This document shows, piece by piece, positions 7,095 to 63,687 of a stretch of DNA of 64,000 bases (positions are counted from its first letter, which is position 1; each line of letters opens with the position of its first letter). Origin of the DNA: a virus; IMG/VR virus record IMGVR_UViG_3300009523_000001, positions 1 through 64,000 of that record, one strand, 5' to 3'. Below the pieces are notes generated by a model. The model was not told where the DNA came from and ran no database searches. It worked only from the letters and a program-made list of their open reading frames with translations. The position numbers and the translations under genes are program-made.

Positions 7095-7462
7095 TTTTTC
7101 TCTCCTGTCCGCTCGATCAACACCATCCCCACCTCTTCCAGCAATCCGTCTCCTTTGCGCAGATTGCAACGCATGCACGCGATGACGAGGTTCTCCAGGG
7201 TCGTCTGGCCGCCGCGCGATCGGGGGACGACGTGTTCGATCGTTCGGGTGTTGTCTGGCCACGGACCGGTCTTCATGTACGGAGCCAGCACTGGCGCGTC
7301 AACGCAGACAATCCCGCAGTACTGGCAGCGGTAGCCATCGCGTGCGAAGACTGCCGCCCGGACGGTGACACCGAGTCGGACCTTGGCTCTTTTTCGCAGA
7401 TCGAGGGCATCGCCGGCGGGCCAGTCCACCCACACGTCTTCGTTTGCGCGCTTCAAGTCCAC
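7091..7462 (-). CDS. HNH endonuclease
   Basis: 123 aa. FARDGYRCQYCG, then RTIEHVVPRSRGGQTTLENL and CMRCNLRKGD, give the complete HNH core with two zinc CxxC pairs (E-H-V-V-P, N in LENLV, C-x-x-C-N). This is a McrA-type HNH nuclease that cuts or nicks dsDNA. The GTG at 7462 with GGAGG just upstream is chosen; the frame upstream is shadow. It overlaps its upstream neighbour by 10 nt and the downstream gene by 4. Confidence 0.85.
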   Translation of the reverse strand: MDLKRANEDVWVDWPAGDALDLRKRAKVRLGVTVRAAVFARDGYRCQYCGIVCVDAPVLAPYMKTGPWPDNTRTIEHVVPRSRGGQTTLENLVIACMRCNLRKGDGLLEEVGMVLIERTGEKK

Positions 7463-7842
7463 CCTTCCTCCGGGTACCACGGCCACTCGCCGTTGCGCTG
7501 ATATCCCCACTCCTCGGCCGTCACCGGCCGCCACGTCTTGATCGACGGCAGCACTTCGCGGGAGCCAGGCCAGTCTCCCGGCCCGTCGTCCACCCACCCG
7601 AGGTCGCAGACGTAGACGCCGTCCCCGTTCGGGGCGGGGCCCATGTCGTAGCCGTTCTTCTCCGGGTCAAATCCGTCTTTGTCGGCACCATGCCCCGCCA
7701 TGACCTCGGCGAGATGCTTCCCCGCCTGCCACGCGAGCACGTACGGCTTGCCGTGCGCCACGACGACGAGCGCCTTGCCGGTGCGGGCAACCTCTCGCGT
7801 TTCCTTTTGCGCCGCCTCCAGCCTTCTTTTTGTTTCGCTCAT
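7453..7842 (-). CDS. Hypothetical acidic protein
   Basis: 129 aa. A short basic helix (MSETKRRLEAAQKETREV) precedes a Gly/Asp/Trp-rich body. Not recognised. The ATG at 7842 overlaps the stop of the next upstream gene. The C-terminal W-rich tail is odd. Confidence 0.6.
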   Translation of the reverse strand: MSETKRRLEAAQKETREVARTGKALVVVAHGKPYVLAWQAGKHLAEVMAGHGADKDGFDPEKNGYDMGPAPNGDGVYVCDLGWVDDGPGDWPGSREVLPSIKTWRPVTAEEWGYQRNGEWPWYPEEGWT

Positions 7843-8072
7843 GGGATGGCCACCTTGTTCCGCTCGCCCCACGCGCGCAGGTTCTGCCGGAGCGTGACCC
7901 CTAGCCGGCGGATCTCCACCTGCCCGCTCGTCACGAGCCGCGCGAGCTGCTTGAGGGGCAGCACGGCGAGGACGTCGACCGGTCGAACGGGACGCGGTCG
8001 TGCTTCTCGTGCAGGAACGCAAGTGTGCGGCGCAGTTGCTTGCGTTGGCGCATGTGGCGCCGTCTGGACCAT
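7839..8072 (-). CDS. Small basic protein, start uncertain
   Basis: Up to 77 aa. The C-terminal half (QLARLVTSGQVEIRRLGVTL and onward) looks coding and ends in ATGA overlap with the next gene. The N-terminal half is low-complexity and coincides with another plausible gene in a different frame (7931-8077). A GTG at 7964 would give a 41-aa version. A frameshift joining the two frames is an alternative. Confidence 0.4.
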   Translation of the reverse strand: MVQTAPHAPTQATAPHTCVPAREARPRPVRPVDVLAVLPLKQLARLVTSGQVEIRRLGVTLRQNLRAWGERNKVAIP

Positions 8073-8077
8073 CTCAT
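7931..8077 (-). CDS. Small Arg-rich protein overlapping its neighbour
   Basis: 48 aa. AAGGAG sits 6 nt before the ATG at 8077, the best ribosome site in this stretch. The first 34 residues are strongly basic (MRWSRRRHMRQRKQLRRTL), and the rest is Ser/Pro/Cys-rich and poor. It overlaps 7839-8072 over most of its length in another frame. Either it is a short real gene, or the two frames were one gene now broken by a frameshift. Confidence 0.4.
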   Translation of the reverse strand: MRWSRRRHMRQRKQLRRTLAFLHEKHDRVPFDRSTSSPCCPSSSSRGS

Positions 8078-8087
8078 GGGGATCTCC

Positions 8088-8759
8088 TTACTGTGGTGGC
8101 TCTCGTCGGGTGGTGCGTTTCGGAGCGCGTCGGGTCCGCGCGAAGTTCATGGTGGAGCGCAGTTCATTAGCCGTCTCCGGATCGCGTTTGGCGGCCCAGG
8201 CCACCGCAGCGTCAAGCTGCTGCGCCGGCAGGCTCTCGGCAGCTTGCTCGATCGCGGCGACGTCTTTCGGTCGGTCGGCCTTCGTCTTGACGAGCAGGAT
8301 GCCGCCGAGCGGAGCGATCGGGACCTGGACGCCGTAGTGGGTCTGCATGTGCGACAGCTCGATCATCTCCTGCTCGATCGGGTGCTGTGCTGCGAGAAGG
8401 TCCACACCGAGACCGAGCGGGCTGCGCAGTGGGATCATGGACCGCTCCTCGTGGATGTCGAAGAGCACCCCGTCGTCCATGTAGTGGACCGTCGCCCTGT
8501 CGGTCGGCACGTAGTCGTCTGTGCCTGCGTCGTAGAGCAGGGGCGTGTAGCCGAACGTCTCGACGAGCACGTCCGCGAAGTCTTCGAGGTTGGCCGTCGG
8601 CACGAGCGCGTCGGCGTCCTCGGTGTGTTTCGGTACGCCGTAGGCGATGAGGGCCTGACCACCGATGAGCGCCCACGGGACGCGCGCGTTGGTGGCGGCG
8701 CGCCGGATGTCGAGCAGAGCGTTCGTGACTGCGGGGTCGGAGGGGGGGATGTTGCTCAC
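8088..8759 (-). CDS. Nucleotidyltransferase-like protein
   Basis: 223 aa. VPWALIGGQALIAYGVPKHTEDADALV matches the GG-x-A ... T-x-D-x-D start of minimal nucleotidyltransferase folds (AbiEii / DUF6036-like), with D-x-D as the probable metal site. The rest is helical with a beta middle. Families of this type act as antitoxin-regulated toxins (AMPylators or tRNA modifiers) or house-cleaning enzymes. GTG 8759 has GAGGAG upstream and overlaps the upstream stop. No obvious AbiEi antitoxin lies beside it. Confidence 0.6.
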   Translation of the reverse strand: MSNIPPSDPAVTNALLDIRRAATNARVPWALIGGQALIAYGVPKHTEDADALVPTANLEDFADVLVETFGYTPLLYDAGTDDYVPTDRATVHYMDDGVLFDIHEERSMIPLRSPLGLGVDLLAAQHPIEQEMIELSHMQTHYGVQVPIAPLGGILLVKTKADRPKDVAAIEQAAESLPAQQLDAAVAWAAKRDPETANELRSTMNFARTRRAPKRTTRREPPQ

Positions 8760-30998: not shown

Positions 30999-32798
30999 TC
31001 ATTCTTCGTCCGCTTCCGGACTCCCACCCCCGCCGCGCGTCCGGATGCCGGCAGCGATCTGCCGGATCTTCCGGTACCCGTCCGCGCACTTGGCCATGTT
31101 GCGCGTGAGCGCCGCTGCGAAGCTCTCGTCGTGGTAACTCATGTTGTCGGCGATGTGCGTCGCCTCGTGGATCGCGGCAGCGTACAGCCACTTCAAGTCC
31201 GAGTCCTGCGCGGGCCGCAGGAGCTCCTGGCGCGTCCGGACGTCCTTGAAGGGGTTCAGCATGATCCAGGACTCGTCGCGCCCCTCCTTGTCCTCGTCGG
31301 TGATGGCTTGCGCGCCGTGGTCGGTCGAGAACACGAATCCGGCGCCGAAGTGCCGGTCGCTGCCGAGCTGCATCATCACGTACCGGCACAGCTCGACCCA
31401 TGTTTTGGCGAGCTTGAGCACGGTGGGCGTCATCGTCGCTGGGAAGAATTTGCGTGGGACCCGGTAGCCCTCGATCTCGTTGACCAGGAAGAAGTCCGGC
31501 TCCCAGACAAGCTGCTTGATGGCCGCTTCGAGGTGGTTGGGTCCCAGGAACTTCTGGTCGAGCAAGATGGTGGAGACGGTCGGCGATGGCATCGACTGCA
31601 GCCGATCCTCCTCGCCCTGCGCGTAGCTGCCCATCGAGGCGATGATGATCTCGGTGCTCCGGGTCGGCAGCTCCCCGGCGCCGTAGGGGCCGATCTGGTC
31701 GAGCGCCCTTGATGCCCGTTCCTTCGCGCGAAACTTCCCGGTCCCCTCGAACTTCTGCCGGATGAGGCCCTGCTTGTTCTTGAGCGCGGAGAGGTTGTCC
31801 TTCGCGATCCGTTCGGCCAGCTTGTCGACGGCGTCGCGCACGTGGTAGTCGCGGAACCCGTCGCGGTTCGCGGTCAATAGCTCGATGGACGGCGCGGTCA
31901 GCTCGGCGACGAGGAAGCCGGGGATGGTGCCGATGTACGACGAGAACATGAAGAGACCGCGGGCGCGCACGTAGAGGTACGACTGCGTCTCGCCGGTCGA
32001 CGGGGTGAAGTAGATGTCGGCCTTGTCCGGCACGCTGTCGACCATTCGGCCGCCGGTGAGGTCGGCTTTGGCCGGTGCGCCGTTGACCGTGAACCGGATG
32101 CCGGGCAAGTTGCACTTCTGGAGGAACCCGAGCGCAACGGGCGCGTCGGTCAGCTTGTCCGGCGGCATCACGACTTCGAGCCGGGTTCCTGTTCGCGCGG
32201 GCCCGCGCACGACCGTGTAGTCGATTCCGGCCCCCTCCACGACCGTGTCGCGGCTGTGGACCTTCCAGGAGATCCACGGCAGGAGCAGCAGCTCCTTGGC
32301 CTTGCCGAACCCACCCGCGGCGCCGCTCGGTCCGGTCTTGGTGGTGGCGCCGAGCACGAGGAACTTCGTGAGGATGGTCTCCTCGTCCATCCCCTTGCCG
32401 TCGTCCTCGCAGGAGACGAGCATTGTGCCGTCGTCCTGCTTGATGGCGCCGAGCGCCACATTCTTTCCGCCGGCGTCGACCGCGTTCTGGACGGCTTCCC
32501 GCCACCACTTGAGCGGCCAATCGTTGTAGTCCTTGAGCGCGGTGATGAAGAACTCGGGACCGATGGTGATGATCCGACGCTCGGACTGCTCGTGCAGCAC
32601 GCGCCGCTCAGGCTCGGTCGTCACCTCGACGGTGACCGTGCGCCCGTGGTCGTCGTAGACCTCGCCGCGGAAGAGGGCGTAGCCACCCTCCACGATCGCC
32701 ATCATCGGGAAGTACGCCTCGCTGCCCGAGTGAACGACGTAGAGTCCCGGCAGCGCGTCCAGCGCGTCCTGAGCGGTCTCGAGGAGGGTGGCCTTCAT
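30999..32798 (-). CDS. GHKL ATPase fused to C-terminal zincin
   Basis: 599 aa. Residues 96-170 hold the Bergerat ATP site: REAVQNAVDAG (E101, N105), EDDGKGM (131-137) and GATTKTGPSGAAGGFGKAKE as the G2 lid. Residues about 540-565 are HEATHIADNMSYHDESF: an HExxH zinc motif (544-548) with a downstream H-D-E-x-F that usually supplies the third ligand. GHKL ATPases (HSP90, MutL, MORC-type) move conformationally on ATP binding; joining one to a peptidase suggests ATP-gated proteolysis. No canonical HSP90 or kinase domains are present. Last gene of the 40395 operon. Confidence 0.8.
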   Translation of the reverse strand: MKATLLETAQDALDALPGLYVVHSGSEAYFPMMAIVEGGYALFRGEVYDDHGRTVTVEVTTEPERRVLHEQSERRIITIGPEFFITALKDYNDWPLKWWREAVQNAVDAGGKNVALGAIKQDDGTMLVSCEDDGKGMDEETILTKFLVLGATTKTGPSGAAGGFGKAKELLLLPWISWKVHSRDTVVEGAGIDYTVVRGPARTGTRLEVVMPPDKLTDAPVALGFLQKCNLPGIRFTVNGAPAKADLTGGRMVDSVPDKADIYFTPSTGETQSYLYVRARGLFMFSSYIGTIPGFLVAELTAPSIELLTANRDGFRDYHVRDAVDKLAERIAKDNLSALKNKQGLIRQKFEGTGKFRAKERASRALDQIGPYGAGELPTRSTEIIIASMGSYAQGEEDRLQSMPSPTVSTILLDQKFLGPNHLEAAIKQLVWEPDFFLVNEIEGYRVPRKFFPATMTPTVLKLAKTWVELCRYVMMQLGSDRHFGAGFVFSTDHGAQAITDEDKEGRDESWIMLNPFKDVRTRQELLRPAQDSDLKWLYAAAIHEATHIADNMSYHDESFAAALTRNMAKCADGYRKIRQIAAGIRTRGGGGSPEADEE

Positions 32799-43523: not shown

Positions 43524-43703
43524 ATGCGAACACTCATTTGCCGCCGCTGCCACCGGCTCCGCCTTGTCAATGCGACACGCACGTGCGCGGCGTGCGAGAA
43601 GGATCTTCGAGCGCAGGAGCGGCCGCGCGCGGCGGCGGCGCCAGCGCAAGTCGATGGCCCTGCGCCGCCCGGCACCGGGGTCGAGGACGCGACGCACGAC
43701 TAG
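43524..43703 (+). CDS. Zinc-ribbon microprotein
   Basis: 59 aa. LICRRCHRLRLVNATRTCAACEK gives two CxxC pairs in a zinc ribbon; the rest is Ala/Pro-rich. Start ATG 43524 preferred to TTG 43503. The TAG is shared, as CTAG, with the convergent phosphatase gene. Confidence 0.6.
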   Translation: MRTLICRRCHRLRLVNATRTCAACEKDLRAQERPRAAAAPAQVDGPAPPGTGVEDATHD

Positions 43704-44260
43704 CGCGTCGCCGCGTCTTCGAAGAAATAAGCTGTCAGGTCCACGTCCACCCAGCGAAACCCGTGGTCGGTCATGTCCTTCTCCATTTGGGACCGAGACC
43801 ACCCGAACATCTTTCTGCCCTCGAGCGCGCTGACGAGGCCCGTCCGATCGCGGCCGTGCGAGCAGTGGAAAGCGACCACGTAGCCTTGCGTCCATGCGTA
43901 GTGGATGACTTGCACTGCGCCCATGACCTGCTCTACGGACGGTTTGATCAGGACGGACCACGGTTTGTCGTCCTCGGGCGGCATCGGGAATTTGAGAACC
44001 TTCCAGCCGAGCGTGGTGGCAGGATCGTCGGATCCCTCCTCGTCGTCGTTGAGCTTGACGATGACGACCCGCTCGCCGCTCGGGGCGATGCGCGCCGCGA
44101 GCTCCTTCCATGCCGCCTCGTTCGGTGGTTGGCCCATCCGCCACATGCGTGGGGCGAAGGAGACGAGGTTCGGGGTGCCTGCCGGCGTCACGGTCTCGTG
44201 AAACCCGAATCCACATCCGAAGAGGGCCAGGACGGACAGCACGAACCGGGGCAGCTTCAT
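43700..44260 (-). CDS. Lipoprotein dual-specificity/tyrosine phosphatase
   Basis: 186 aa. A signal peptide with lipobox (LSVLALFGCG) would lipidate it. The catalytic loop is VVAFHCSHGRDRTGLVSAL: H-C-x5-R (HCSHGRDRTG), the Cys-based DSP/PTP signature. A possible general-acid Asp lies upstream (KLNDDEEGS). Phosphatases of this type dephosphorylate proteins or inositol-type substrates. A lipid-anchored version on a phage is unusual. Coupled upstream to a 19-codon ORF and another phosphatase. Confidence 0.75.
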   Translation of the reverse strand: MKLPRFVLSVLALFGCGFGFHETVTPAGTPNLVSFAPRMWRMGQPPNEAAWKELAARIAPSGERVVIVKLNDDEEGSDDPATTLGWKVLKFPMPPEDDKPWSVLIKPSVEQVMGAVQVIHYAWTQGYVVAFHCSHGRDRTGLVSALEGRKMFGWSRSQMEKDMTDHGFRWVDVDLTAYFFEDAATR

Positions 44261-44316
44261 GGGGTGCACTCCGCGAGGGCGGCCAGCAGCCAGGCCAGCA
44301 ACCGGAGGGGGTTCAC
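44257..44316 (-). CDS. 19-codon hydrophobic mini-ORF between phosphatases
   Basis: From GTG 44316, NPLRLLAWLLAALAECTP, hydrophobic. It overlaps the stop of the upstream phosphatase (GTGA) and the start of the downstream one (ATGA). Like 24188-24238 it may keep ribosomes coupled; it is also a possible tiny membrane peptide. Confidence 0.4.
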   Translation of the reverse strand: MNPLRLLAWLLAALAECTP

Positions 44317-44720
44317 GGCCTGCCCTCGACCATCGCACGGAAGTAAGGGTTCGTCAGGCCATCGCGGAGTTCTCGGATGCGGCGGACGGCGCGGTCCCGC
44401 GGCACCCCGAGCTCGACGAGCGCCAGGCCCGCAATGACCCCGGAACGGTTGCGGCCCTGCCAGCAAGTAACGATCACGCGATGTCCGATCCGCACATGGT
44501 CCGCCACCGTTCGCGCGGCGCTCCGGATGCGCAGGCGAGTCACCTTGTCCGGCGGGGGCCCATCGTCGAGCGGCACGTGCAGCACGCGGTAGCCGGGCAG
44601 ATCCGGCTGGTATTCCTCGGCCGCGAGCACGACGACGTCGAAGGGGATGCGTGCGCGAGGAGGCGGGGCGCTCCCCTGCGCGAGCCGGCCGCCGGAGAGG
44701 AGGTAGTGGTAGCCGCTCAT
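44313..44720 (-). CDS. Small dual-specificity phosphatase
   Basis: 135 aa. VIVTCWQGRNRSGVIAGLAL holds the C-x5-R active loop (CWQGRNRSG). HVPLDDGPPPD upstream may provide the general acid. Length and motif match minimal DSPs or cyclin-like phosphatases. Cytosolic (no signal). Adjacent to a second, lipid-anchored phosphatase. Confidence 0.75.
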   Translation of the reverse strand: MSGYHYLLSGGRLAQGSAPPPRARIPFDVVVLAAEEYQPDLPGYRVLHVPLDDGPPPDKVTRLRIRSAARTVADHVRIGHRVIVTCWQGRNRSGVIAGLALVELGVPRDRAVRRIRELRDGLTNPYFRAMVEGRP

Positions 44721-44740: not shown

Positions 44741-46072
44741 TCAAGAATCGGCGTAGAAGACGCAGTTGTTCGGCGCCTCGAAGAGCAGCACCCAGTCGTT
44801 GTCACCAGCGGCGTTGGTGCCTGGAGTGGCGGCGAACGTGTGGCTGCCCGACGTCCCGAGTGTTCCGTTGACGGCCGATTGCACGCTACCGCTTGTGGGG
44901 TCCATCCAAAAGGCGCCGACGCGACGAGTGAACCCGGATAGGGCAACGGTCAACGATTCATTGGTGGGCACGTAGATGGCGCCCCATGAGCCGTCGGAGG
45001 CTTGCGCAGCGCTCGCGAAAGCGGCCCCGCTGTAGCTGCCGCCGTTGGTCAAGAAGGTGAATCCTGTATCGGGCACGAGGAGCCACCAGGCACGCGAAGC
45101 CATGAGGTTGTTGACGACGTTGCTGCCAAGGGCGCCTGTTGTTCCGAGCAACGTCGGCCAGCTCGTGAGAAACTCCCAGAGCGGCTTTGGGGCCACGGAA
45201 CCGCCGCTACCAAAGGTGTATCCCATTCCTCCGTTGAGTAGCGACTCCCAATTTTCCTGACGAATAAGCTGTTCGGTGCCGGAGTTATCGAACTCGTAGC
45301 AGCTTTCGATCATGAACGACGGTCGTGATTGACCGGTATACGACGACTGCATGTTCGTGTGGATCCACGGATGCCCATTTTGGACATCTGTGTACACACT
45401 GTCTACCGTGAGCCAGGATTGGCCACCCCACTCTGTGCTCGCGTTGGTACCGTCTGCGCAGTGGGCCGTCATCAGATGAGTCGAATCGGCCGCGACGATC
45501 GCGGTCGCTATGGCGATCGTCGAGCTCGTGTCGGCTGGATTATAATCACCGCCCATAACGTAAATAATGTTTGGAAAGCTCGTGTATCTTGACCCGAAGA
45601 AGTTGCCATAGGCTGTTCGTTTAGCACCGCTGTTCGCCTGGAGATCAGTGTACCAGCCTTGGTTACCCCCGTTGAACCCGAGGTATGCTGGGAATAGAAG
45701 TACCATCATTCCGTAGGTCGCGCATGTGTTGATTGCCAAGTCCCACTGATCGAAATAGGCTGTATTCCATGTGGAGAAATCGGCCAATTGGGATCGATTG
45801 GTGTACGTGCTCCCGTCGGTGGCTTTCAAAAACGGCTGATCTCCGTTGAGGTTGGCCGCCGTACTCCCGTCCGGTCCAACGGGCGCCATATACAGCAACG
45901 TGGTGTTGAACCCCCGAGCGATCCGATCCTGCACGTACTGTGTGATGCCGGAGCTATTTAGTGAAATGCCGATGTTCCAACCGGAGTCTCCACGCATCTG
46001 AAACGGTACTCCGAATTGATCGACAAGATACCGTTTTCCAGTAGGGATGACGAGTGGAAATCTGCTTGCCAT
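44741..46072 (-). CDS. DUF4038/GH140-like glycoside hydrolase, virion-associated
   Basis: 443 aa. Starting FQMRGDSGWNIGISLNSSGI, with RIARGFNTTLLYMAPVG, NIIYVMGGDYNPAD and RPSFMIESCYEFD, it follows the DUF4038 TIM-barrel of apiosidase-type GH140 enzymes. The C-terminal 100 residues form a beta sandwich like the collagen-binding-like domain that usually follows. No signal peptide. In an appendage operon next to fibre proteins it is probably a tail-associated depolymerase for a surface polysaccharide. It ends NNCVFYADS. Confidence 0.65.
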   Translation of the reverse strand: MASRFPLVIPTGKRYLVDQFGVPFQMRGDSGWNIGISLNSSGITQYVQDRIARGFNTTLLYMAPVGPDGSTAANLNGDQPFLKATDGSTYTNRSQLADFSTWNTAYFDQWDLAINTCATYGMMVLLFPAYLGFNGGNQGWYTDLQANSGAKRTAYGNFFGSRYTSFPNIIYVMGGDYNPADTSSTIAIATAIVAADSTHLMTAHCADGTNASTEWGGQSWLTVDSVYTDVQNGHPWIHTNMQSSYTGQSRPSFMIESCYEFDNSGTEQLIRQENWESLLNGGMGYTFGSGGSVAPKPLWEFLTSWPTLLGTTGALGSNVVNNLMASRAWWLLVPDTGFTFLTNGGSYSGAAFASAAQASDGSWGAIYVPTNESLTVALSGFTRRVGAFWMDPTSGSVQSAVNGTLGTSGSHTFAATPGTNAAGDNDWVLLFEAPNNCVFYADS

Positions 46073-47137: not shown

Positions 47138-49243
<2,106 letters not shown>

Positions 49244-52017: not shown

Positions 52018-52398
52018 TCACCAATCCGGTGTGCGGCGGATTAGGTCGACCAACGAGTCCAGGCCAATCGGCTTGCCGAGCATGATGTGGTGCAGCCCCT
52101 CGAAGGCGTTCTCTCTCGCCTTGGAACGGACGTCCTCGGGAGGCATGGCGCTCGTGATGATGATCGGGATCTCCTTCCATTTGTCGTCGTTTCGCATCAG
52201 CCGCGCGACGTCGATCCCGGAGAGCTCCATCTCTCCGGGGTCGATGTCGAGCAAGACCAACTCCGGCGATTCGCCGGCGAGCAGGCGCACGGCTCCGGCG
52301 CAGGTGGACGTGGAGGACACGTCGTGGCCGCATCCACGGAGAAACGTGGCGAGCGCCTGACGGGTGGATGGATCGTCTTCGACGATGAGGATCCTCAT
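52018..52398 (-). CDS. Single-domain response regulator receiver
   Basis: 126 aa. ILIVEDDPSTRQALATFLRG (D8, D9), LVLLDIDPGEMEL (phosphoacceptor D51), T82 in IIITSAM and K109 in LGKPIG are all present, so a functional REC fold is likely. No output domain. Free-standing receivers act as phosphate sinks or bind partner kinases. AAGGAG directly abuts the ATG, which is unusual spacing. A terminator lies between it and its upstream gene. Confidence 0.8.
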   Translation of the reverse strand: MRILIVEDDPSTRQALATFLRGCGHDVSSTSTCAGAVRLLAGESPELVLLDIDPGEMELSGIDVARLMRNDDKWKEIPIIITSAMPPEDVRSKARENAFEGLHHIMLGKPIGLDSLVDLIRRTPDW

Positions 52399-53558: not shown

Positions 53559-55172
53559 TCAATGGGAGAGAATGTAACCCGATCCGGTGTTCGGATCGAG
53601 CAGCGATCCGGCATCGACCAGGGCCGCGATCGTGATCGGCTGACCTAGCCCGAACGTCCCGGTCGTCTGGTTGAAGCTATTTCCGGTACCGGTCGAACCA
53701 CCGCCGAACGACAGGGGACCGTTCGTGAGAAGCGTGGACGCCCACGCGGCGGCGCCGAATGAGTTGTAGAAGTTGCCACCTGAGTTGGCGTTCATGGAGT
53801 AAAGGCCCCACTCGGAGTTGCTATTCAGGACAACCGTTCCGTTCTCCTCCACATTGAATTGGCCCGCTCCCATGTATACGCCGGCGTAGGATGCGACACA
53901 CCCCAACGTACTGGCGGACACGGAAGAACTCGGCAGTAGGATCGTCTGGCCATTGACGGCAGTTGTGCCGGATGTGCAGACAAACTCCGACCGAGAGGCC
54001 CCTGCGACGAATCCTGTATTGCCGGAGACCGCGGTGACTATCCCGGTCACGTCTGTACCTTCGGCCTGCGCGATGCCCGTTCCGCCCCGAATGTTCAATG
54101 TGCCGCTTACATTGGACAGGACAAGCAGAGATGAGAGCGCATAGTTCGTGAAGCTGTAGTTGCCACTGATCTGGGCCATCGCGACGGCCGAGACTCCAAC
54201 GTTGCCATGACCGGACCACTCTCCGACGTTGGCCAAGGACGGGTTCTCCAGTACGATCGTATCGCCTTGCGCCCACGAGCTGTTGGTGCTCACGCCTAGA
54301 GACGGCGGAACGAAGTTCAGTGGCTGCTCCACGGTCGCCGATCCAGCGTCGACGGACAGAATGTACGCGTAGGATTGGCGGCCGGCGGCGGTCGTGTTCT
54401 CGAGGAGCTGGCCAGGTGCCGCGCCATCCGGCATACCGGCAACCGTGAGCAGAGTTCCGCCCTCGACGATGACTGGCTGCGTGACCACCCCTGCCTCGAA
54501 TGTCGTGACCGTCTGCGGCGTCACGAAGAGAGCGGATCCACCTAGGGTGGAGGCATCTTGGCTCGTTGCGTAATTTGGCGTGAAGAAGATGACGTCGGTG
54601 TTCGGGATCTGGGGCGTCAGGAGGTAGAATGCCGTGAACTGCAGCAACGTCGGCGACTGCGTACCCAGTCTATGGGTAATGATTTCGCCGAACGTCGCGC
54701 ACGGCAGCGCGATCGTCGTGCATGGGTTGGTGTCCGACCCGGTGGAGGCAACGTACCACGCGGAGATTCCCCAGGCGGGCGGGAAGATCGGATTGAAGGC
54801 GCCAGCAGATCGCGGGCGCAGCGGCTTGGGCTTCTTGCATCTCCATTTCCCGTCAAATGCAATGCACGCGTCGTAGTCGATGACCGTCTGCGGGCGTTGG
54901 TCGACGTACGGTGCGGCCTCGGATTCGACCAACGCCCCCTGCGAGAGTCGGTAGATCCTAGCAAACACCGCATTCGGCGCGTCGGCCAGGATTCCGGCGT
55001 CGGACACCTGTGCTTCCGCCGATTTCTGAGCGTCGGACGACTCAGTGACTGGACTGCACGCGAGGAGCGCGAGGGACACGAGCGCAACAAAAGTGCGGGA
55101 CATCAACCGATTTTCTTCCATCGCCCGAATGTACTCTCGCGCGTACCGTCTGCGATCGATGACGTAGCTCAT
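53559..55172 (-). CDS. Surface or virion protein with internal lipoprotein signal
   Basis: 537 aa from ATG 55172; MSYVIDRRRYAREYIRAMEE matches the start of the collagen-like protein, and the upstream element is shared. A second Met at residue 24 (55103) begins a perfect lipoprotein signal (SRTFVALVSLALLACSPV). The remaining 500 residues are beta-rich, Gly/Ser/Thr/Ala-heavy with repeated strand patterns (VVTQPVIVEGGTLLTVAG, SGTLNIRGGTGIAQ) resembling a pectate-lyase-like or fibre-type beta helix. Either start may be used. Confidence 0.7.
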   Translation of the reverse strand: MSYVIDRRRYAREYIRAMEENRLMSRTFVALVSLALLACSPVTESSDAQKSAEAQVSDAGILADAPNAVFARIYRLSQGALVESEAAPYVDQRPQTVIDYDACIAFDGKWRCKKPKPLRPRSAGAFNPIFPPAWGISAWYVASTGSDTNPCTTIALPCATFGEIITHRLGTQSPTLLQFTAFYLLTPQIPNTDVIFFTPNYATSQDASTLGGSALFVTPQTVTTFEAGVVTQPVIVEGGTLLTVAGMPDGAAPGQLLENTTAAGRQSYAYILSVDAGSATVEQPLNFVPPSLGVSTNSSWAQGDTIVLENPSLANVGEWSGHGNVGVSAVAMAQISGNYSFTNYALSSLLVLSNVSGTLNIRGGTGIAQAEGTDVTGIVTAVSGNTGFVAGASRSEFVCTSGTTAVNGQTILLPSSSVSASTLGCVASYAGVYMGAGQFNVEENGTVVLNSNSEWGLYSMNANSGGNFYNSFGAAAWASTLLTNGPLSFGGGSTGTGNSFNQTTGTFGLGQPITIAALVDAGSLLDPNTGSGYILSH

Positions 55173-55657: not shown

Positions 55658-58600
55658 TCAAGTCTGGGTCGAGATGAGGCGATCGACGGCGGCTGAATCG
55701 AAGAACGCCAGGTGCGCCGAGGCGTCGTTCACCCCGAAGCTGACCACCAACCGATCGCCGTCGCGAGCCAACCCGGCGGCGAATTCGATGCCCTTGCGCT
55801 CGAAGTAAAACGGCTCGGAGATGCTCCGGATCTCGAGCTTCTCGGTCAGCCGGACGAACCGGTGAAGGTAGATCCGTCCAGGGGTGTGGACGACCTCGTG
55901 CACGAGGCAGAGGAAACTGTCTCCGTGCGGGATGACCTGCGATCCGCCGCGCAGCTCAGTCAGATTTTCGTCAAGATCGGTGATGCGGAACCGCTCGGTG
56001 GTTTTCTCCGGCGCGCAGTCGATCACGATCGTTGGGTCGCACAGGTAGAGGAAACTGCCGGGTTGCCCGAGGATCGGCATCCAGTTCTTCTGCGCGCGGT
56101 CGTGCTCGTAGTCGCGAATGACGCGGACGTCCGTGATCTTCCACTCGTGGTCGATCGTGAGAATGCACTGTTCGCATCGTCCATCGCCTAGATCGCGGAC
56201 GACGGCCGACGCGCGAAACTTGTCGCCGTCGAGCCAGAGCCGGCAGTCCTCGAACCCTTCGACCGGGTAGCTCGTACGCGGGAGGCCTGTCGCGTCGGTC
56301 AGGAGTGTGGGCGATCCGGTCGGCTTCCACGTCTTGTTCATCTCGAGGATCCAGTTTTTGGTGCGGATGATGCCGCTGCCGTCGATCGTGGGGTACTGCC
56401 CCTCGGCGACCGTGTAGTTCACGGTGCGGACCAGCACGAGCCGCCGGTCGCCCACGACGAGCACCGACGGGTTCATCGGCGCGTACCCATCGTCCGATTT
56501 CCAGTCGATCGCGCGCAGCTCGGCGCCGCAGAGCTCGCGCGCGGTCTTGACGTAGTGAACGAAATTCCCTCGGGCCTCGCCGCGCACGTTGGCGTCCCGG
56601 TCGATGGTCAGTCGGGCGCACGCGTCGTAGCCGGCCTGCCGGCGCGCGGGGAGCTTGCTGTAGAACCCGCTGATGGCGACATCGGGCGCGTTTTTGCGTT
56701 CGTAGACATCCTTCTCGACGAAGAGGATTTCGTCCGGGCAGGGCATCCGTGCGACCTGTTCGGCGAGGAGGATCGCCGCATCGCTCTTGCCGTGCTCGCG
56801 CCACCACCGCGCGAGCAGCGCCAGCGGTTCCGCGCGGGTGGGTCGGAAGTTGTAGGCGTCGAAGCAGGCGAGGACGAGCGCCGGCTCGTCGTTCAACGCG
56901 GCATGGCTGCGCGCGATGCCGTAGTGCGATGCCCAGACTTCTTCGTCCCACCCGCCGGCGGCAATCCGGCGCGTGTACCACTGGATGGCCTCCTGCTGCC
57001 GTCCCATCTCGCGGTAGGTGTTCGCGAGGTAGAACATATAACGGGCGTTGTCCGGCTCCCGGGTGAGGCCGTCCATGAGCAGGCGGATGTCCCGATCGCC
57101 CTTGTCGCCCTTCGACCCGCCGTCGTTGCGGTCGTCGATGGAGCACGAGTCGAGGTTCGGCGGGGTGTCGCCGGGAACAGAGAGAAACTCGTGAGTGACG
57201 CCGACGTACTGCGCGACCACGTCGCGCCGAACGAGCCGCGTATTCCAGTAGTGAAGGGCTCCGGTCAACTGCTGGAGCCGGTACGCGGGCGCGGTGAGCG
57301 CCCGCTTGTCCAGCGACCCCCGGAGCACCATGTCGGCGTCGATAAGCAGGGCGTAGTCCCATCCGTCGTACGCTCGTGCTGCCTCGAGCGACTCGTTTCT
57401 GGCCTGGGCGAAGTTCTTGAACGTGGTGCGGACCAATTTGCCGGGGACTTGGTGCTCTTTGAAAAACCGCTGGATCGTCTCGAATGTCCCGTCGGTCGAT
57501 CCGGTGTCGGTGATGACCCACTTGTCGATGAAGGGCAGCGCGGCCGAGAGGCACCGCTCGATGATGGCGCTCTCGTTCTTGACGATCATCACGAGGCAGA
57601 TCCGGGTGACCGTCGATTTCTCCTCCTTGTGCTTGCCGCGGGCGGCGGTGGCACGGCGTTCAAGCCGATTCATGGGGGTGTCTCCGTCACGTGGAATATC
57701 GATGATGCTGTCGTCGTGGTCGGCCTGGTACCAGTCGAACCGCTGGCCCTCTCGTTCCATCTCAGCCCAGGTGTTGACCTCCCAGGTGATCTGCTGCATC
57801 CGCCGGAAAACGGCGTGGTAGCGCTCGACGAGCTCGGGGATCGATTCGCGGTCGACGAGCAGAAAGCCACCGCAGAATCGCCAGTTCACGTCGTCGTCGG
57901 TCGCGCGCGCTGCGGCGGTCTCCTTATTCCAGCAGCCCGGTGCAAGTACGCATACAGACGGGGGATGGAGCGCACGCAGTCGGTCGAGGAAGCTCGCCGG
58001 ATTCTTGACGACCTTCATCACCGCGAAGTCGATCCAGGCGAAATGCGAAGAGGAGTCGTCGAGCTCGCGGGCGAGCGCAAGGAGATCGAGCTTGGCGTTG
58101 ATGAGCAAGAGGGAACCGCGCGCGTCCTTTTCTGACGAGCGGGTGCCCGGAAGCGTTCGGGTGCCGTCGTCGTGCTGGAACGGCCACAACGATTCGAGGT
58201 CGGTCAGTTCCACTTGAACGTTCGGGTGCTTGGGCGCTCGCTCGGCGAGCTGCCGGTCGAGAAAGAGGAGGATCGGCAGGCCGCTCGCGGCGAGCTCGGA
58301 GAACCATCGAAAATACGCGTCTTCGTCCACGGTTCGATCCCGCAGCCGGAAGAACGCTGAGACAAAACGGGTGCTGGAGATCGGACGTTTCAGCAGGGTG
58401 AGCACATCATCCATCCGGGTCGGTCTTTCGGGACGTTTCTTCTGAGACGATCCGCGCTCTCTGGCGAGTGCGTGGAGCCGCTCGTTCCACTCAACGCCCT
58501 CGCGGGTCACCATCTCCGCGAGCTCCGGCAGCCGACTCGAGCTGACCTTTTCCGCGTGCCATGCGACGACGTCGCGCAACGTGACCGATTGGAAGCCCGC

Positions 58601-60358
58601 TTCGGCGAGCACGGTTTGGATCCACGTGTCGCCGTACCAGAGGCGCAGCTCCGGCGGGATCGGGAACGCGATCGTGACCGCTTCCCGTGTCAGGGCGAAA
58701 AACGCTCCGGCCGTGTGCTTTGGGTCGTTGGTCGATTCTCCGGACGGCCGCACGGCGCCGGCGGCTTCGGCTTCGGTGCCGACCCGTCGACCCACCCAGA
58801 CCTCTCGCCGGCCGCGCGCGCGGTCGAACCGCTGGAGCAGCGATGAAGACCATCCTGGACTGACGACGAGGTCGGCGTTCGCAATGACGAGGATCTCGGC
58901 GTTCGACTCGAGAAACCGTGCGGCAAGCTGATTCCAGGCGGGGTTGACGTAGACGTTCTCCGGATTGCGCAGGACCGTAATGGTGGCCCCCATTTCGTCG
59001 AGCGCCGATTTGACAGCCGGCGCGCCGCCGTTGTCGATCGCCACGACGTCGACCCCCGGCTCGCAGAACGACCGGAGCGCGCGCACGAGGAGATCGTGAT
59101 CCTCCGCGAAGCACGGTACGCCGAGTACGATGCGGGTGCGCTGGGTGCGCGTCAGCACCGTGAGGCCGTTGTTGTTGTGCAGGCGGACCTCGATCCCCCA
59201 TTCCGGATGCGCCGCAATGAATTCTTCGACCGCGGGCCAGAGGCCGGGACCGACGTCGCCCTCGTCGCGGGTGCCGTAGGTCTCCGTGTCGTGCAGCACG
59301 ATGTGCTTGCGTACTTTCGGTCCGTGCAGGGCGAGCTCCTGCCGGAGCTGCGCGTAGGTGTGGATCGTGTCGATGAACAGAAGATCGGTCTCGTCGATGC
59401 CGACCGACAGCGAGCTCACTCGCTGGAAATCAAAATCGATCCCCGCTTCTGTGGCCACCTTCTTCTGAAGATTCACCTTGTCCCGGATGTCGTAACAGCG
59501 CATCCGCTTCGGCCGGCCGTGGAGCAGACCCCATGTCGACAGACCGACCCCCAACTCCGTCACGCGTTCGCAGTCTTTGGCGTACATCGAGAGCATCGGG
59601 ATGTGCTCGTGGATGTCCGACGGGGTGTCCCGGGCAGCGACGTACTGGCGTTCGATCTCTCCAAGACTTCTGCAGGCTTTGCTGAGCCGAGACCACGCAA
59701 CCCGGTCGTGCGCCGTCATGGAATGAAACTCGGGCACGTGGCCGCCGCTGACGAATCCCTCGTGCCACACGGCCATGCCGTAAAGCGTTCGCTGCCGAAA
59801 GCCAGCCTCCGAGAGCAGCGAATGGATCCAGTCATCGCCGCAGTGGATGAGCAGCTCCGGCGGGATCGGGAACGCGATGGACACCGCCTCCCGCGTCATT
59901 GCAAAGAAGGCGCCGCTGACCGATCGGCCCGACGAACCATCGACCGTATCGATGGATGCGGTCTGCGCGCGCGAGGCTTCGTTCACGCTCGAGAGGGCTC
60001 GTCCGAACCAGAACTCTCGGTCGCCCTTGGACCGCGAGTGGTCGCGGCGCAGCAGCAGGGAGGCGGACCAGTGAGGGGCTGCGATGAGGTCCGCGTTCGC
60101 GAGGACGAGGATCTCCGAGTCGGATGCGAGGAAATGCGCGGCAAGCTGGTTCCACGCCGGGTTCACGTAGATGTTCGTTGGGTTGCGGAGGATTTCGATG
60201 GACGGTTCCATTTCGGCCAGCACGGCCTTCACGTCGGTCGCCGCACCGTTGTCCACGGCCACGACGGCGACCTCGTCCTCCAGGAAGGATCGAAGGGCGC
60301 GCGTCAGCAGCTCGCGAGGCTCCGCGAAGCAGGGGACACCCAGCAAGATGCGCGGCAT
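55658..60358 (-). CDS. 1566-aa multi-domain glycan-building megaprotein
   Basis: From ATG 60358. Domains in order: GT-A glycosyltransferase 1 (3-200; RILLGVPCFAEPRELL, NADLIAAP); a Methyltransf_24-like segment (250-405; DLLFIDTIHTYAQL, HIVLHDTETYG); GT-A copy 2 (409-610), closely similar to copy 1; an HtrL/YibB-like glycosyltransferase (650-895; LLLINAKLDLLALARELDDS, HFAWIDFAV); GT2 copy 3 (919-1060; VMIVKNESAIIERCLSA, DTGSTDGT, LIDADMVL); TPR-like helices (1090-1200); and a C-terminal GH130-like propeller (1285-1566; GYAPMNPSVLVVGDRR, VEGFEDCRLW). No membrane segments. It may assemble or decorate a surface glycan. Confidence 0.8.
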   Translation of the reverse strand: MPRILLGVPCFAEPRELLTRALRSFLEDEVAVVAVDNGAATDVKAVLAEMEPSIEILRNPTNIYVNPAWNQLAAHFLASDSEILVLANADLIAAPHWSASLLLRRDHSRSKGDREFWFGRALSSVNEASRAQTASIDTVDGSSGRSVSGAFFAMTREAVSIAFPIPPELLIHCGDDWIHSLLSEAGFRQRTLYGMAVWHEGFVSGGHVPEFHSMTAHDRVAWSRLSKACRSLGEIERQYVAARDTPSDIHEHIPMLSMYAKDCERVTELGVGLSTWGLLHGRPKRMRCYDIRDKVNLQKKVATEAGIDFDFQRVSSLSVGIDETDLLFIDTIHTYAQLRQELALHGPKVRKHIVLHDTETYGTRDEGDVGPGLWPAVEEFIAAHPEWGIEVRLHNNNGLTVLTRTQRTRIVLGVPCFAEDHDLLVRALRSFCEPGVDVVAIDNGGAPAVKSALDEMGATITVLRNPENVYVNPAWNQLAARFLESNAEILVIANADLVVSPGWSSSLLQRFDRARGRREVWVGRRVGTEAEAAGAVRPSGESTNDPKHTAGAFFALTREAVTIAFPIPPELRLWYGDTWIQTVLAEAGFQSVTLRDVVAWHAEKVSSSRLPELAEMVTREGVEWNERLHALARERGSSQKKRPERPTRMDDVLTLLKRPISSTRFVSAFFRLRDRTVDEDAYFRWFSELAASGLPILLFLDRQLAERAPKHPNVQVELTDLESLWPFQHDDGTRTLPGTRSSEKDARGSLLLINAKLDLLALARELDDSSSHFAWIDFAVMKVVKNPASFLDRLRALHPPSVCVLAPGCWNKETAAARATDDDVNWRFCGGFLLVDRESIPELVERYHAVFRRMQQITWEVNTWAEMEREGQRFDWYQADHDDSIIDIPRDGDTPMNRLERRATAARGKHKEEKSTVTRICLVMIVKNESAIIERCLSAALPFIDKWVITDTGSTDGTFETIQRFFKEHQVPGKLVRTTFKNFAQARNESLEAARAYDGWDYALLIDADMVLRGSLDKRALTAPAYRLQQLTGALHYWNTRLVRRDVVAQYVGVTHEFLSVPGDTPPNLDSCSIDDRNDGGSKGDKGDRDIRLLMDGLTREPDNARYMFYLANTYREMGRQQEAIQWYTRRIAAGGWDEEVWASHYGIARSHAALNDEPALVLACFDAYNFRPTRAEPLALLARWWREHGKSDAAILLAEQVARMPCPDEILFVEKDVYERKNAPDVAISGFYSKLPARRQAGYDACARLTIDRDANVRGEARGNFVHYVKTARELCGAELRAIDWKSDDGYAPMNPSVLVVGDRRLVLVRTVNYTVAEGQYPTIDGSGIIRTKNWILEMNKTWKPTGSPTLLTDATGLPRTSYPVEGFEDCRLWLDGDKFRASAVVRDLGDGRCEQCILTIDHEWKITDVRVIRDYEHDRAQKNWMPILGQPGSFLYLCDPTIVIDCAPEKTTERFRITDLDENLTELRGGSQVIPHGDSFLCLVHEVVHTPGRIYLHRFVRLTEKLEIRSISEPFYFERKGIEFAAGLARDGDRLVVSFGVNDASAHLAFFDSAAVDRLISTQT

Positions 60359-61611
60359 CACGAAGCTCGGAAAATGAGGACGTTGTCCCCGTACCACGGC
60401 ATTCGAGTGAGTTTCGTCCACTCGGCTTTCACGGCGGCAGTCCTCGTTTCGTCAACCGAGAAGCCCTCCGCGCCGAACTTCGTGATCCAGTACGTCGGCG
60501 GTTGGCAATTGATATGATCGTGGCCCCCTTGGCCGATCGGTGCGGCTGTCAGCAGGATCGAACCACCCGGCGCGCATGCCCTGCAGAGCTTGCACACGAG
60601 CGTGTCTGCGTCCTCTACCGGCAGGTGCTCGGCCACCTCCATGCACGTCACGAGGTCGTAGGGAGGCGACGCCCCAAAGGCCGCATCGCCCGCCGTGATG
60701 TCCTCCTGCCATAGGTAAAGTCGGACGGCGGCGTCTGCCCGGTCGAAGGCGGCCGTGGAGCCTTCTAGCCCCCACGCATCCACGCCCAGTTCGCGCAATC
60801 GGCCCACGAATTGCCCCGGACCGGCCCCCACGTCGAGGACCCTCTGGGGCGAGAGCAGACGAAAGACCATCTCTGCGGCGGTTCGGATGTCCGCTTTCTG
60901 GAGACCCTGGTATGCGTCGAAGAAGTGGGCGTCGTAGATGCCGTCCAGGTTGCGGCGCGAACGGTGGTAACTCGCCAGGCGCGGGTACCTGCGCTTGCTC
61001 CGGAAGAACCGATCCGCCGCCAAGGTGGGCGCTCCTCCGGAAGGGTCGGTTCCGGATTCCCCGTACATGACCAAGACGTCCTCGACCCACCGCGTGCGGT
61101 CCCATCCCGCCATCTCGACCATCGGGAACATCGTGGCGTGATCGACCGCGCGTCCTGTCCATGTGCCGTCCGGGAGCTTCAGGTCGGAGGGGTCGATGCG
61201 CTGGAAGAGGCCTGCCCGGAACGTCTTCAGGTGCGAGCACCGCCACGGGGCCGTACGCACGTCTTCGTCCGGTGCGTAGGGGGCGTTCGTCGCGTGGGTG
61301 CGACCGTCCTCGGTCGCGAAGGACCCGTAGGTGAGCCACACGGCCGGGTCCTCATAGAGGCGGGCGATTCGCGCCGCAACGGTCGTGTGCGCAAACCAGT
61401 CGTCCCCGTCAAGCTGCAAGACAACGGCATCCGGATCGAGGTCAGAAACCGAGTCGACGAGGTTCTCCGAGTGCGTCTTCGGAGTCGGCTGCGACGCGGC
61501 TTCGATGAAGATGTGCCGCACCGGGACCGTCTGGGCTGCGACCGAGTGGCGGCATCGGTCGGTGGGCGACGCGCGAAAGCAAGTCGAGACGACAACAAGT
61601 TGCGCGCTCAT
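60358..61611 (-). CDS. Glycosyltransferase/methyltransferase fusion
   Basis: 417 aa from ATG 61611. Residues 1-195: GT2 (LVVVSTCFRAS start, LQLDGDDWFAHTT with the D-G-D-D acid cluster). Residues about 235-400: class I SAM methyltransferase (QRVLDVGAGPGQFVGRLREL, DLVTCMEVAEHLP). Likely adds and methylates a sugar. Overlaps both neighbours by 1-4 nt. Confidence 0.8.
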   Translation of the reverse strand: MSAQLVVVSTCFRASPTDRCRHSVAAQTVPVRHIFIEAASQPTPKTHSENLVDSVSDLDPDAVVLQLDGDDWFAHTTVAARIARLYEDPAVWLTYGSFATEDGRTHATNAPYAPDEDVRTAPWRCSHLKTFRAGLFQRIDPSDLKLPDGTWTGRAVDHATMFPMVEMAGWDRTRWVEDVLVMYGESGTDPSGGAPTLAADRFFRSKRRYPRLASYHRSRRNLDGIYDAHFFDAYQGLQKADIRTAAEMVFRLLSPQRVLDVGAGPGQFVGRLRELGVDAWGLEGSTAAFDRADAAVRLYLWQEDITAGDAAFGASPPYDLVTCMEVAEHLPVEDADTLVCKLCRACAPGGSILLTAAPIGQGGHDHINCQPPTYWITKFGAEGFSVDETRTAAVKAEWTKLTRMPWYGDNVLIFRAS

Positions 61612-62159
61612 GGCACCTCGACGTACCACACCGGGTAATAGAGCCCGTTTGTGAATTGGCTTCCGCGCCAGATGTTGAAATGATCAAACGCTTCGATAAC
61701 GGCTCGAACCAGGCCGGGATACTCCCAGGTGAAATCGTGCCCCGCGAGGACCCCGCCCGATTTGATCTTCGGACCCCAGGCAACGATGTCATTCTGGACA
61801 TCCGAATGTTCATGGCCGGCGTCGAGGAACACGAAGTCGAGAGACTTATCGGCGTAGAAGCTGGCCGCTTCCCAGGATGCGCCGAGATGCACCTGATCGA
61901 TTGCATGCGCGATCGGATCGAGCGCGCGGCGGATTCCGTCCGTGCCCAGGTCGTTGAACCCCTGATCCACGAGATCGAGCGTGGCGCCCTTGTCGGCGCG
62001 AGAGAGCTCCACACCGAGAAACGCCGCGCTCCGACCGGCAAAGACCCCCACCTCGACGCAGCGTGCCTTCTCTGGCACTCGCTTGGCAATCCAGGCGTAG
62101 AAGTCTTCGAACGTAAAGTACCCAGGCAGGGTTTTGTAGAAGTGCTCGATCGTTTTCAT
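61608..62159 (-). CDS. Class I SAM methyltransferase, copy 2
   Basis: 183 aa. VEVGVFAGRSAAFLGVEL (SAM loop), LDLVDQGFNDLG, LDFVFLDAGHEHSDVQ and GGVLAGHDFTW match Methyltransf_24 (MacP/CmcI-type sugar O-methyltransferases). About half identical to the neighbouring 62156-62725 protein, so a tandem duplication. Confidence 0.75.
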   Translation of the reverse strand: MKTIEHFYKTLPGYFTFEDFYAWIAKRVPEKARCVEVGVFAGRSAAFLGVELSRADKGATLDLVDQGFNDLGTDGIRRALDPIAHAIDQVHLGASWEAASFYADKSLDFVFLDAGHEHSDVQNDIVAWGPKIKSGGVLAGHDFTWEYPGLVRAVIEAFDHFNIWRGSQFTNGLYYPVWYVEVP

Positions 62160-62725
62160 AACCGAACGCACCAGCAGGGGAAGAAGTGCCCCTGCATCTG
62201 CGCATCTCCACCGTCGGTGATCCCGGGCCAGACCTCGAAGCGGGCGAACCGCTCGTTGACGGCACGGACGACGCCGAACTCTGGATTCTGCCAGTGGATG
62301 TAGTCGTGTCCGGCGAGCAGGCCACCCTTTTTGACCTTGGGTCGCCATGCGTCAATGTCTCTGGAGATGCTATCGCGGTCGTGGTTCGCGTCGAGGAAGA
62401 CGAAGTCGAGCGACTCATCGGGATAACGGGCTGCGACATTCCACGAGCAACCCTTTTGGATTCTCCACGCCACGGGAATCTTGGCGAGCCGGCCCATCAC
62501 GGTTTCTGGAGGGCTGTCGTGAAACTGGTCGACGAGATCCACCTGAGCCGAGACGCCTCGGTTGACCAGCTCCACCCCCAAGAAGGCGGCGGATTGCCCG
62601 TGGTAGATGCCGACCTCCACGAGGTGCGGCGACGGCTTGCCGATCATCTCTCCGGCCACCCACGCGTAGAAGTCCGGGAACGTGAAGAAGCCCGGGATCT
62701 CTTTGAAATAGTGCTCCATGCCCAT
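62156..62725 (-). CDS. Class I SAM methyltransferase, copy 1
   Basis: 189 aa (or 187 from ATG 62719, better spaced from GGAGG). VEVGIYHGQSAAFLGVELVN, VDLVDQFHDS, LDFVFLDANHDRDSISRDID and GGLLAGHDYI show the same Methyltransf_24 fold as its neighbour. The two copies probably methylate different positions. Confidence 0.75.
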   Translation of the reverse strand: MGMEHYFKEIPGFFTFPDFYAWVAGEMIGKPSPHLVEVGIYHGQSAAFLGVELVNRGVSAQVDLVDQFHDSPPETVMGRLAKIPVAWRIQKGCSWNVAARYPDESLDFVFLDANHDRDSISRDIDAWRPKVKKGGLLAGHDYIHWQNPEFGVVRAVNERFARFEVWPGITDGGDAQMQGHFFPCWCVRL

Positions 62726-63687
62726 CAGCCTCCGAACACTTCGCGGGCGATCTCGGTTACGGCGAGCTGCACCGCTTCATCGGACGAGCGAGTCACGCGA
62801 AACCCGAGCGCCGCCAACTTGTCCGGCTTCAGGCACGAGTGGGGGACGTCCCCTCGCCACCCTTGCACGTCCGTGCCGAACGCGATGCGCGCGGACGGGT
62901 TCGGCGAGGCCGCAACGCACAGCTCGGCAATCCGCGCCACGCTCGTCGAGTTGGGCGGCGCAATGTTGTAGATTGCCGGCCGTAGCGCTCCACCCTGTGT
63001 GTGATCGAGCACGAAGAGCAAGCCCGCCACGCAGTCGCGGACGTGCAGGTACGGCTTGGACTGGTGGCCGTCGCCGAGCACGTCGAGATGGTCTGGATGA
63101 TCCTTGAGCTTCTTGCAGAAATCGAGAAGGACGCCGTGCGTGCCACGCGAGCCCACGACGTTGCCAAACCGACAGATAACCCCTTCGAGGGCGAAGCACT
63201 CCACGAAGGCGGCGAGCATCGCCTCGCTCGCGAGCTTGCTGGCGCCGTAGAGCGAGATGGGCAGGTGCCCGAGATCCCGTTCTCCGCACGGAACAGAGAC
63301 GTTGCCGTACACGGTTCCGCTCGACGCGAGCACGAATCGCTTCACGCAGCCGAGGCGGGCGGCCTCGAGCGCGTTGTACGTGGCGATCGTCCCCTGTTCG
63401 AGGTCGAGCCGGGTGTTCGTGAGGCCGTGGCGCGCTTCGGGGTTGGCGGCGAGATGGAAGACGACGTCGTGACCCTGCATGGCCACAGCGAGCGCAGGCA
63501 AGTCGAGTGCATCCCCGCACACAAGGGTCGCCCGGCCGGAAGCGATCGGTTCGGCGAGAAACGCCGACTTGCCGACGCTCAGGTTGTCGAACACGGTGAC
63601 GGGACCGCGCTCGACGAGCTGGTCCACCAGGTGGCTTCCGATGAAGCCGGCGCCGCCGATGACGAACGAATGCACTCTTTTACCCAT
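62725..63687 (-). CDS. NAD-dependent sugar epimerase/dehydratase
   Basis: 320 aa. VIGGAGFIGSHLVDQL (GxxGxxG), VFHLAANPEA, LASSGTVYGN and SLYGASKLASE (Y-x3-K) are SDR motifs of UDP-hexose 4-epimerase-like enzymes. It would make the nucleotide sugar for the cluster's glycosyltransferases. First gene behind the promoter at 63750-63779. Confidence 0.85.
   Translation of the reverse strand: MGKRVHSFVIGGAGFIGSHLVDQLVERGPVTVFDNLSVGKSAFLAEPIASGRATLVCGDALDLPALAVAMQGHDVVFHLAANPEARHGLTNTRLDLEQGTIATYNALEAARLGCVKRFVLASSGTVYGNVSVPCGERDLGHLPISLYGASKLASEAMLAAFVECFALEGVICRFGNVVGSRGTHGVLLDFCKKLKDHPDHLDVLGDGHQSKPYLHVRDCVAGLLFVLDHTQGGALRPAIYNIAPPNSTSVARIAELCVAASPNPSARIAFGTDVQGWRGDVPHSCLKPDKLAALGFRVTRSSDEAVQLAVTEIAREVFGG

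Follow-up and report, generated by a model that had tools for sequence, protein, structure and literature searches.

Phages are known to carry kinases and phosphatases, among them the T7 kinase and the lambda phosphatase. To our knowledge, the targets of phage dual-specificity phosphatases (DSPs) are largely unassigned. In enzymes of this type a Cys forms a phosphocysteine intermediate, an Arg binds the phosphate and an Asp first gives up a proton and later takes one back. One of the two proteins described below has TpbA of Pseudomonas aeruginosa as its nearest exported relative, in sequence, among characterised enzymes. TpbA is periplasmic and is reported to dephosphorylate TpbB at tyrosines in its periplasmic portion, thereby lowering c-di-GMP (PMC2691606, PMC4409338). 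A signal peptide is also described for Pho16B, an atypical lipid phosphatase from a soil metagenome (PMC6409689), and the phosphoinositide phosphatase signature of the atypical lipid phosphatases (ALPs) is given as HCXXGKDR[TA]G, in which Lys and Asp are strictly required, in another report (PMC3091653). In the portion of a jumbo-phage overview that was available, no tyrosine or dual-specificity phosphatase term occurs (PMC7824862). Neither a lipid-anchored phage DSP nor the family of gene B, defined below, was found described in the titles and opening abstracts of the open-licence literature, and no described function was linked to that family by the searches made.

The stretch of DNA analysed here (the window) comprises 64,000 nucleotides and comes from an IMG/VR virus record (IMGVR_UViG_3300009523_000001, designated G000) that is 117,665 bases long. 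PHROGs for a baseplate hub, an integrase, a helicase, an exonuclease and a DNA methyltransferase were matched among 77 called proteins of the record, and the record thus fits a tailed, possibly temperate phage. The original prediction was that the window contains two adjacent genes for Cys-based phosphatases with full active-site loops, one with a lipobox and one without. Both ORFs, genes A and B, were confirmed on the minus strand as homologues of Cys-based DSPs, and a lipobox is present in gene A and absent from gene B. The order in the minus-strand run is collagen-like fibre gene, apiosidase-like gene, gene B, gene A, with gaps of 20 nt between the apiosidase-like gene and gene B and of 52 nt between gene B and gene A. 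Promoter-like and terminator-like sequences were not above chance at the A/B run (1 against 1.2 expected and 3 against 4.4 expected, respectively). The features in window coordinates are as follows.

47138..49243, minus strand: collagen-like fibre gene with which the same-strand run begins (ORF; fibre families among the neighbours of relatives)
44741..46072, minus strand: glycoside hydrolase of apiosidase-like type, immediately preceding gene B (PF13204, 8.5e-47)
44313..44720, minus strand: gene B, predicted cytosolic minimal DSP of 135 aa (ORF; DSPc in the family; AF2 model; Tk-PTP at Z 17.1)
44562..44564, minus strand: D53 of gene B, candidate general acid by its conservation (Asp in all aligned rows but one, 26 of 27)
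44439..44468, minus strand: P-loop of gene B, T85-CWQGRNRS-G94, with C86 as nucleophile and R92 (alignment of 27 rows)
44269..44272, minus strand: GGAG, 8 nt ahead of the ATG of gene A and likely its ribosome-binding site
43700..44260, minus strand: gene A, predicted exported, lipid-anchored DSP-type Cys phosphatase of 186 aa (ORF, PF13350, TpbA, phage relatives)
44216..44260, minus strand: predicted signal peptide of gene A, residues 1-15, MKLPRFVLSVLALFG (sequence; prediction by rule only)
44213..44224, minus strand: putative lipobox of gene A, L13-F14-G15-C16 (sequence; rule against shuffles)
43967..43972, minus strand: D97/D98 of gene A, candidate general acid by alignment position
43838..43867, minus strand: P-loop of gene A, H132-CSHGRDRT-G141, with C133 as nucleophile and R139 (sequence; alignments with relatives)
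52018..52398, minus strand: stand-alone receiver domain (PF00072, 1e-13; D8/D9, D51 and K109 present)

The loop motif [HTVS]CxxGxxR[STA] is little proof of a phosphatase by itself, because it occurs in 14 of the 1145 six-frame stretches of at least 60 aa. Among the 145 called genes it was found in A and B only, and shuffled proteins contained it 0.10 times per genome. Pfam searches of the whole 117,665-base record placed DSPc or Y_phosphatase3 solely at these two genes. The family matches of both proteins, together with the structure model of B, support the reading of A and B as two real phosphatases.

Gene B has the CX5R(S/T) P-loop, the upstream Asp and, in its model, the fold of a Cys-based DSP. 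By itself it matched Pfam DSPc at 21.6 bits, under the 33.5-bit cut-off, and its PDB sequence matches were Tk-PTP-type and PRL phosphatases. Profile scans identified 29 loci; the viral contigs that carry them measure 16,565 to 528,957 bases. L003, which belongs to the same population as the window, and the duplicates L006, L015, L031 and L035 (of L005, L014, L030 and L034) were left out, and 24 distinct relatives remained in addition to the window. All 25 family members match DSPc. C86, N91, R92 and S93 are invariant in the 27 aligned rows, which still include the duplicates L031 and L035, and so is a family-specific E-x-Q-P motif. No cellular relatives were found in two scans of cellular contigs, which were limited to stretches matching short peptide patterns. 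The AF2 model, computed from the alignment of the family, has a pLDDT of 96.0 and a pTM of 0.91. The best Foldseek match of this model was DUSP23 (E 1.3e-7), and VIA gave Z 17.1 for Tk-PTP (2.3 A over 130 residues), Z 16.9 for DUSP28 and about 16-17 for several human DUSPs. Values of dN/dS (NG86) were 0.17-0.32 in five of six pairs, and for the remaining pair dS was undefined; YN00 values were obtained in one of the six. From the family matches, the invariant catalytic residues, the confident DSP model and dN/dS, all of them readings of sequence or model, gene B is a conserved minimal DSP under selection that has no export signal and is very probably active.

Several known enzymes resemble gene B. 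Tk-PTP (an archaeal PTP/DSP, 5z5a/5z5b), DUSP23/VHZ and DUSP28 share its minimal fold (Z 15.5-17.1) and catalytic residues; gene B differs from Tk-PTP and the small atypical DUSPs in being viral, in its identity of 21-24% and in its loop TCWQGRNRSG. The family as a whole is similar to phage DSPs, since phrog_10650 ('dual specificity phosphatase') is matched by 20 of the 25 members and phrog_32716 by nine, and the relative L014 matches five annotated phage records (Gordonia/Rhodococcus phage 'PTPc tyrosine phosphatase'). Gene B itself, in contrast, matches PHROGs only at E 0.14 or worse and matched no record of INPHARED, and the family differs from the annotated phage DSPs by its added ExQP motif.

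A PROSITE-type rule for lipoproteins comprises a lipobox, a Cys at position 15-35 and a basic n-region. Gene A complies with it through C16, K2, R5 and a hydrophobic core, as do two of the 145 called genes in all, against 0.17 per genome in shuffles. By the lipobox rule, possible lipoproteins were also noted in the window at 3964-4638 and at 53559-55172, the latter only from an internal Met. The match of gene A to PF13350 (5.8e-5; 23.6 bits, over the 22.2 cut-off) covers residues 125-146 only, that to TpbA in the PDB (E 7e-4) covers residues 111-171, and both lie mainly in the P-loop region. Single-sequence AF2 of gene A gave a pLDDT of 42, and this model was discarded. Gene A resembles TpbA in an export signal by motif rule, in the HCxHGxxRTG loop and in a similar C-terminal half. 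It differs in that the N-terminal secretion signal of TpbA (PMC2691606) is represented in gene A by a lipobox, in an Asp of the loop where TpbA has Asn, and in the sequence KLNxxxEGxD, which is common to the phage enzymes. D97/D98 lie near the place of TpbA D105; an Asp is present there in one of two phage relatives, D98 facing Asp in L053 and not in L042. The above-cut-off match to PF13350 and the P-loop Asp are also features of the ALPs (MptpB / LipA type). However, HCSHGRDRTG keeps the Asp and replaces by Arg the Lys of the ALP signature (PMC3091653), and for this reason we have not placed gene A among them.

The nearest relatives of gene A that we found are phage proteins, with 33% identity over residues 22-168 (four contigs) and 30% (one more). 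These relatives, L052-L056, lie on the contigs of L062-L066; L053 and the protein of record G012 (L042, the same as L056) were read and the other three left out. Gene A and these phage relatives have KLNxxxEGxD and HCxxGxDRTGL in common. The L053 protein matches plant DSP1, yeast SIW14 and TpbA, and its gene is near a gene that appears portal-like by eye. More distant matches are plasmid-borne DSPs. Some of these have a hydrophobic stretch at the N-terminus, and some lie in arsenic-resistance operons. Since L053 and L042, read by eye, have no signal peptide, gene A looks like a phage DSP carrying an exported, lipidated N-terminus. Gene B belongs to a family carried by many large phages, and gene A appears to be an unusual and rare exported version of a phage DSP.

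It had also been proposed that the two enzymes could work together, one on each side of the membrane. This idea is weakened by the comparison of records, none of the 24 other gene-B records having A adjacent. The A-type profile matched four of 26 records: G000; G027, which is the record of L053 and is outside the gene-B-bearing set; G023, where the weak match is to its B gene; and G012. The last is the only one of the 24 other gene-B-bearing records, which may be fragments, with an A-type gene, located about 62 kb from B and unexported. A search for gene A in the records of L004-L007 gave a match only in a near-identical contig (99.98% DNA identity over 11,478 bases). The A/B pairing and the lipobox were observed only in the phage of the window and in this contig of the same population. 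A fixed A/B pair as a general rule is ruled out by its absence from the other gene-B records. Recent tandem duplication was likewise rejected: the BLASTP match of A to B, 28% over 82 residues, corresponds to the shared fold core only. Genes A and B look like separately acquired accessory genes and not a fixed pair, and a two-sided system is not supported outside a single phage population.

A receiver domain, which the original prediction had noted elsewhere in the window and tied to the phosphatases, is indeed present as listed above, with its acidic pair, but no link to the phosphatases was found. Receivers carry phospho-aspartate, on which, as far as we know, Cys-based DSPs are not known to act, and the connection is accordingly weak. 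A relative of this receiver with 29.5% identity was seen at L004 10371-10715. Nor was a kinase partner for A and B seen by the Pfam protein-kinase search: Pkinase is absent from the 117,665-base record, and weak matches below the cut-off were present in two of 25 records. Beside the gene-B relative of L017, two adjacent genes (7139-8658) have loops that look kinase-like by eye (LGCGYYGCVY and LGCGSYGCVY); these genes had no Pfam match.

Several further observations were made on the record. An N-terminal peptide, MS[YF][IV]IGRGR..xETYPTAP, is common to otherwise unlike proteins encoded in the window (47138-49243 and 63848-64255, the latter extending past its end), elsewhere in G000 (64260-68234 and 68248-69429), and in L005 and L012. 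Two more N-terminal tags, GRPVxGFxLG and MRRKLxxLKxKxG, recur at 69-98 kb of G000, and the former is also present in L005 and L018. Such peptides may be docking or assembly tags of virion proteins. A protein of 599 aa with a match to GHKL-type ATPases (HATPase_c_3, 1.4e-6) is encoded at 30999-32798. The cluster at 55658-63687 contains a family-2 glycosyltransferase with TPR, methyltransferases and an NAD-dependent epimerase, a gene set as expected of surface glycan or virion decoration.

The reading we prefer, with a probability of about 55%, is that both proteins are active DSP-type enzymes encoded by separately acquired accessory genes, B cytosolic and directed at host phosphoproteins, and A an exported lipoprotein. 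In both, the Cys would attack the phosphate, the P-loop Arg would hold it and an Asp would serve as acid/base (D53 in B; D97/98 or D138 in A). Gene B would be produced in the host cytoplasm, and its location in the same-strand fibre gene run in the window's clade suggests that it is probably expressed late. Most likely it would dephosphorylate host phosphoproteins (Tyr/Ser/Thr) and so could relieve kinase-based control, e.g. of surface-polysaccharide synthesis or by a defence kinase. Gene A, as a relative of cytosolic phage DSPs, would be exported, lipidated at C16 and, by analogy with periplasmic TpbA, act outside the cytoplasm, most likely on extracytoplasmic phosphoproteins. Homology, the fold of B, the catalytic residues and selection on B are shown by sequence or model, and from these comparisons we infer activity, export, timing, substrates and effects; as regards substrates, the nearest characterised relatives suggest phosphoproteins, with RNA, nucleotide or lipid phosphates as less likely candidates. 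Several points count against this reading: the narrow coverage and poor model of gene A, its possible GTG start at V24, the lack of a visible kinase partner and the sub-threshold DSPc score of gene B.

One or both enzymes might instead act on non-protein phosphates, B on RNA ends or ADP-ribose-type substrates in counter-defence and A on phospholipid, inositol-phosphate or glycolipid; we regard this as rather unlikely. TpbA and DSP-type RNA triphosphatases also have the Asn of the CxxGxNR loop seen in gene B, the Foldseek matches of B include PIR1, PTPMT1 with PI(5)P is among its VIA rows, and Tc-R-P matches eight of the 25 family members. However, B is matched best, in fold and in sequence, by protein DSPs and by enzymes of PRL or Tk-PTP type. 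Among the neighbours of the gene-B family are one NADAR and three of 139 that match a PHROG named RNA ligase; these cases amount to a few each. Rhodanese and phosphatase domains in conflict systems nevertheless provide a precedent for RNA or ADP-ribose roles, and phosphatases of such a kind have been proposed in ADP-ribose conflict systems (PMC9503650). As for gene A, its loop keeps the Asp of the phosphoinositide phosphatases and its cytosolic relative matches plant DSP1 and yeast SIW14, but Arg occupies the position of the lipid-phosphatase signature Lys. It is less probable still that gene A is not exported, its hydrophobic N-terminus being fortuitous or translation starting at the in-frame GTG at V24, a possible start of an unexported form, so that both enzymes would be cytosolic. 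GTG codons are present at V7 and V24, and the A-type relatives L053 and L042 appear to lack a signal peptide. The GGAG upstream of the ATG, the combination of K2/R5, hydrophobic core and lipobox, expected by chance at the frequency given above, and the existence of exported bacterial relatives such as TpbA all argue for export.

A role in virion structure only had been named in advance as the outcome that would speak against the original prediction. By sequence it is disfavoured, the catalytic residues being conserved, yet B does lie in a tail-fibre cluster in the window and in some close relatives. We consider it highly improbable that gene B serves mainly as a protein of the virion or the tail-fibre cluster, borne inside or on the particle, with an enzyme role that is minor or directed at virion parts. 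It lies close behind the apiosidase-like gene in a run with the collagen-like fibre, and tail-fibre PHROGs lead among its 139 neighbours (up to three genes on each side at 24 loci), each with at most five members and with overlapping families. A collagen-like ORF is, however, within 4 kb of the gene-B relative in four of the 24 cases and in the other 20 is not; a general association of gene B with collagen-like fibre genes is thus ruled out, and the fibre setting is a trait of the window's clade and not of the gene-B family. Some relatives adjoin unrelated genes, e.g. thymidine kinase, the catalytic residues are kept throughout the family, and the N-terminal tag patterns of the fibre neighbours were not found in gene B. 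At L016, L025 and L033 a NinI/lambda-type metallophosphatase (PF00149, phrog_246) lies no more than three genes from the gene-B relative; these loci have further neighbours in common and are not independent.

Gene B defines a compact family present on 24 further distinct contigs of up to 529 kb, and this family is testable, since its catalytic and family-specific residues are listed. The more ordinary lesson is that adjacent phosphatase loops are no evidence for a conserved two-sided system. If it is lipidated, gene A would show a phage sending a Cys phosphatase out to the envelope. A bolder and very doubtful extension is that a cytosolic phage DSP has become lipid-anchored at the outer side of a host membrane, where it would dephosphorylate envelope proteins or glycolipids, and that its cytosolic neighbour resets phosphorylation inside, so that one virus would work on either side; if true, surface properties would be reset after infection or in lysogeny, e.g. 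in superinfection exclusion.
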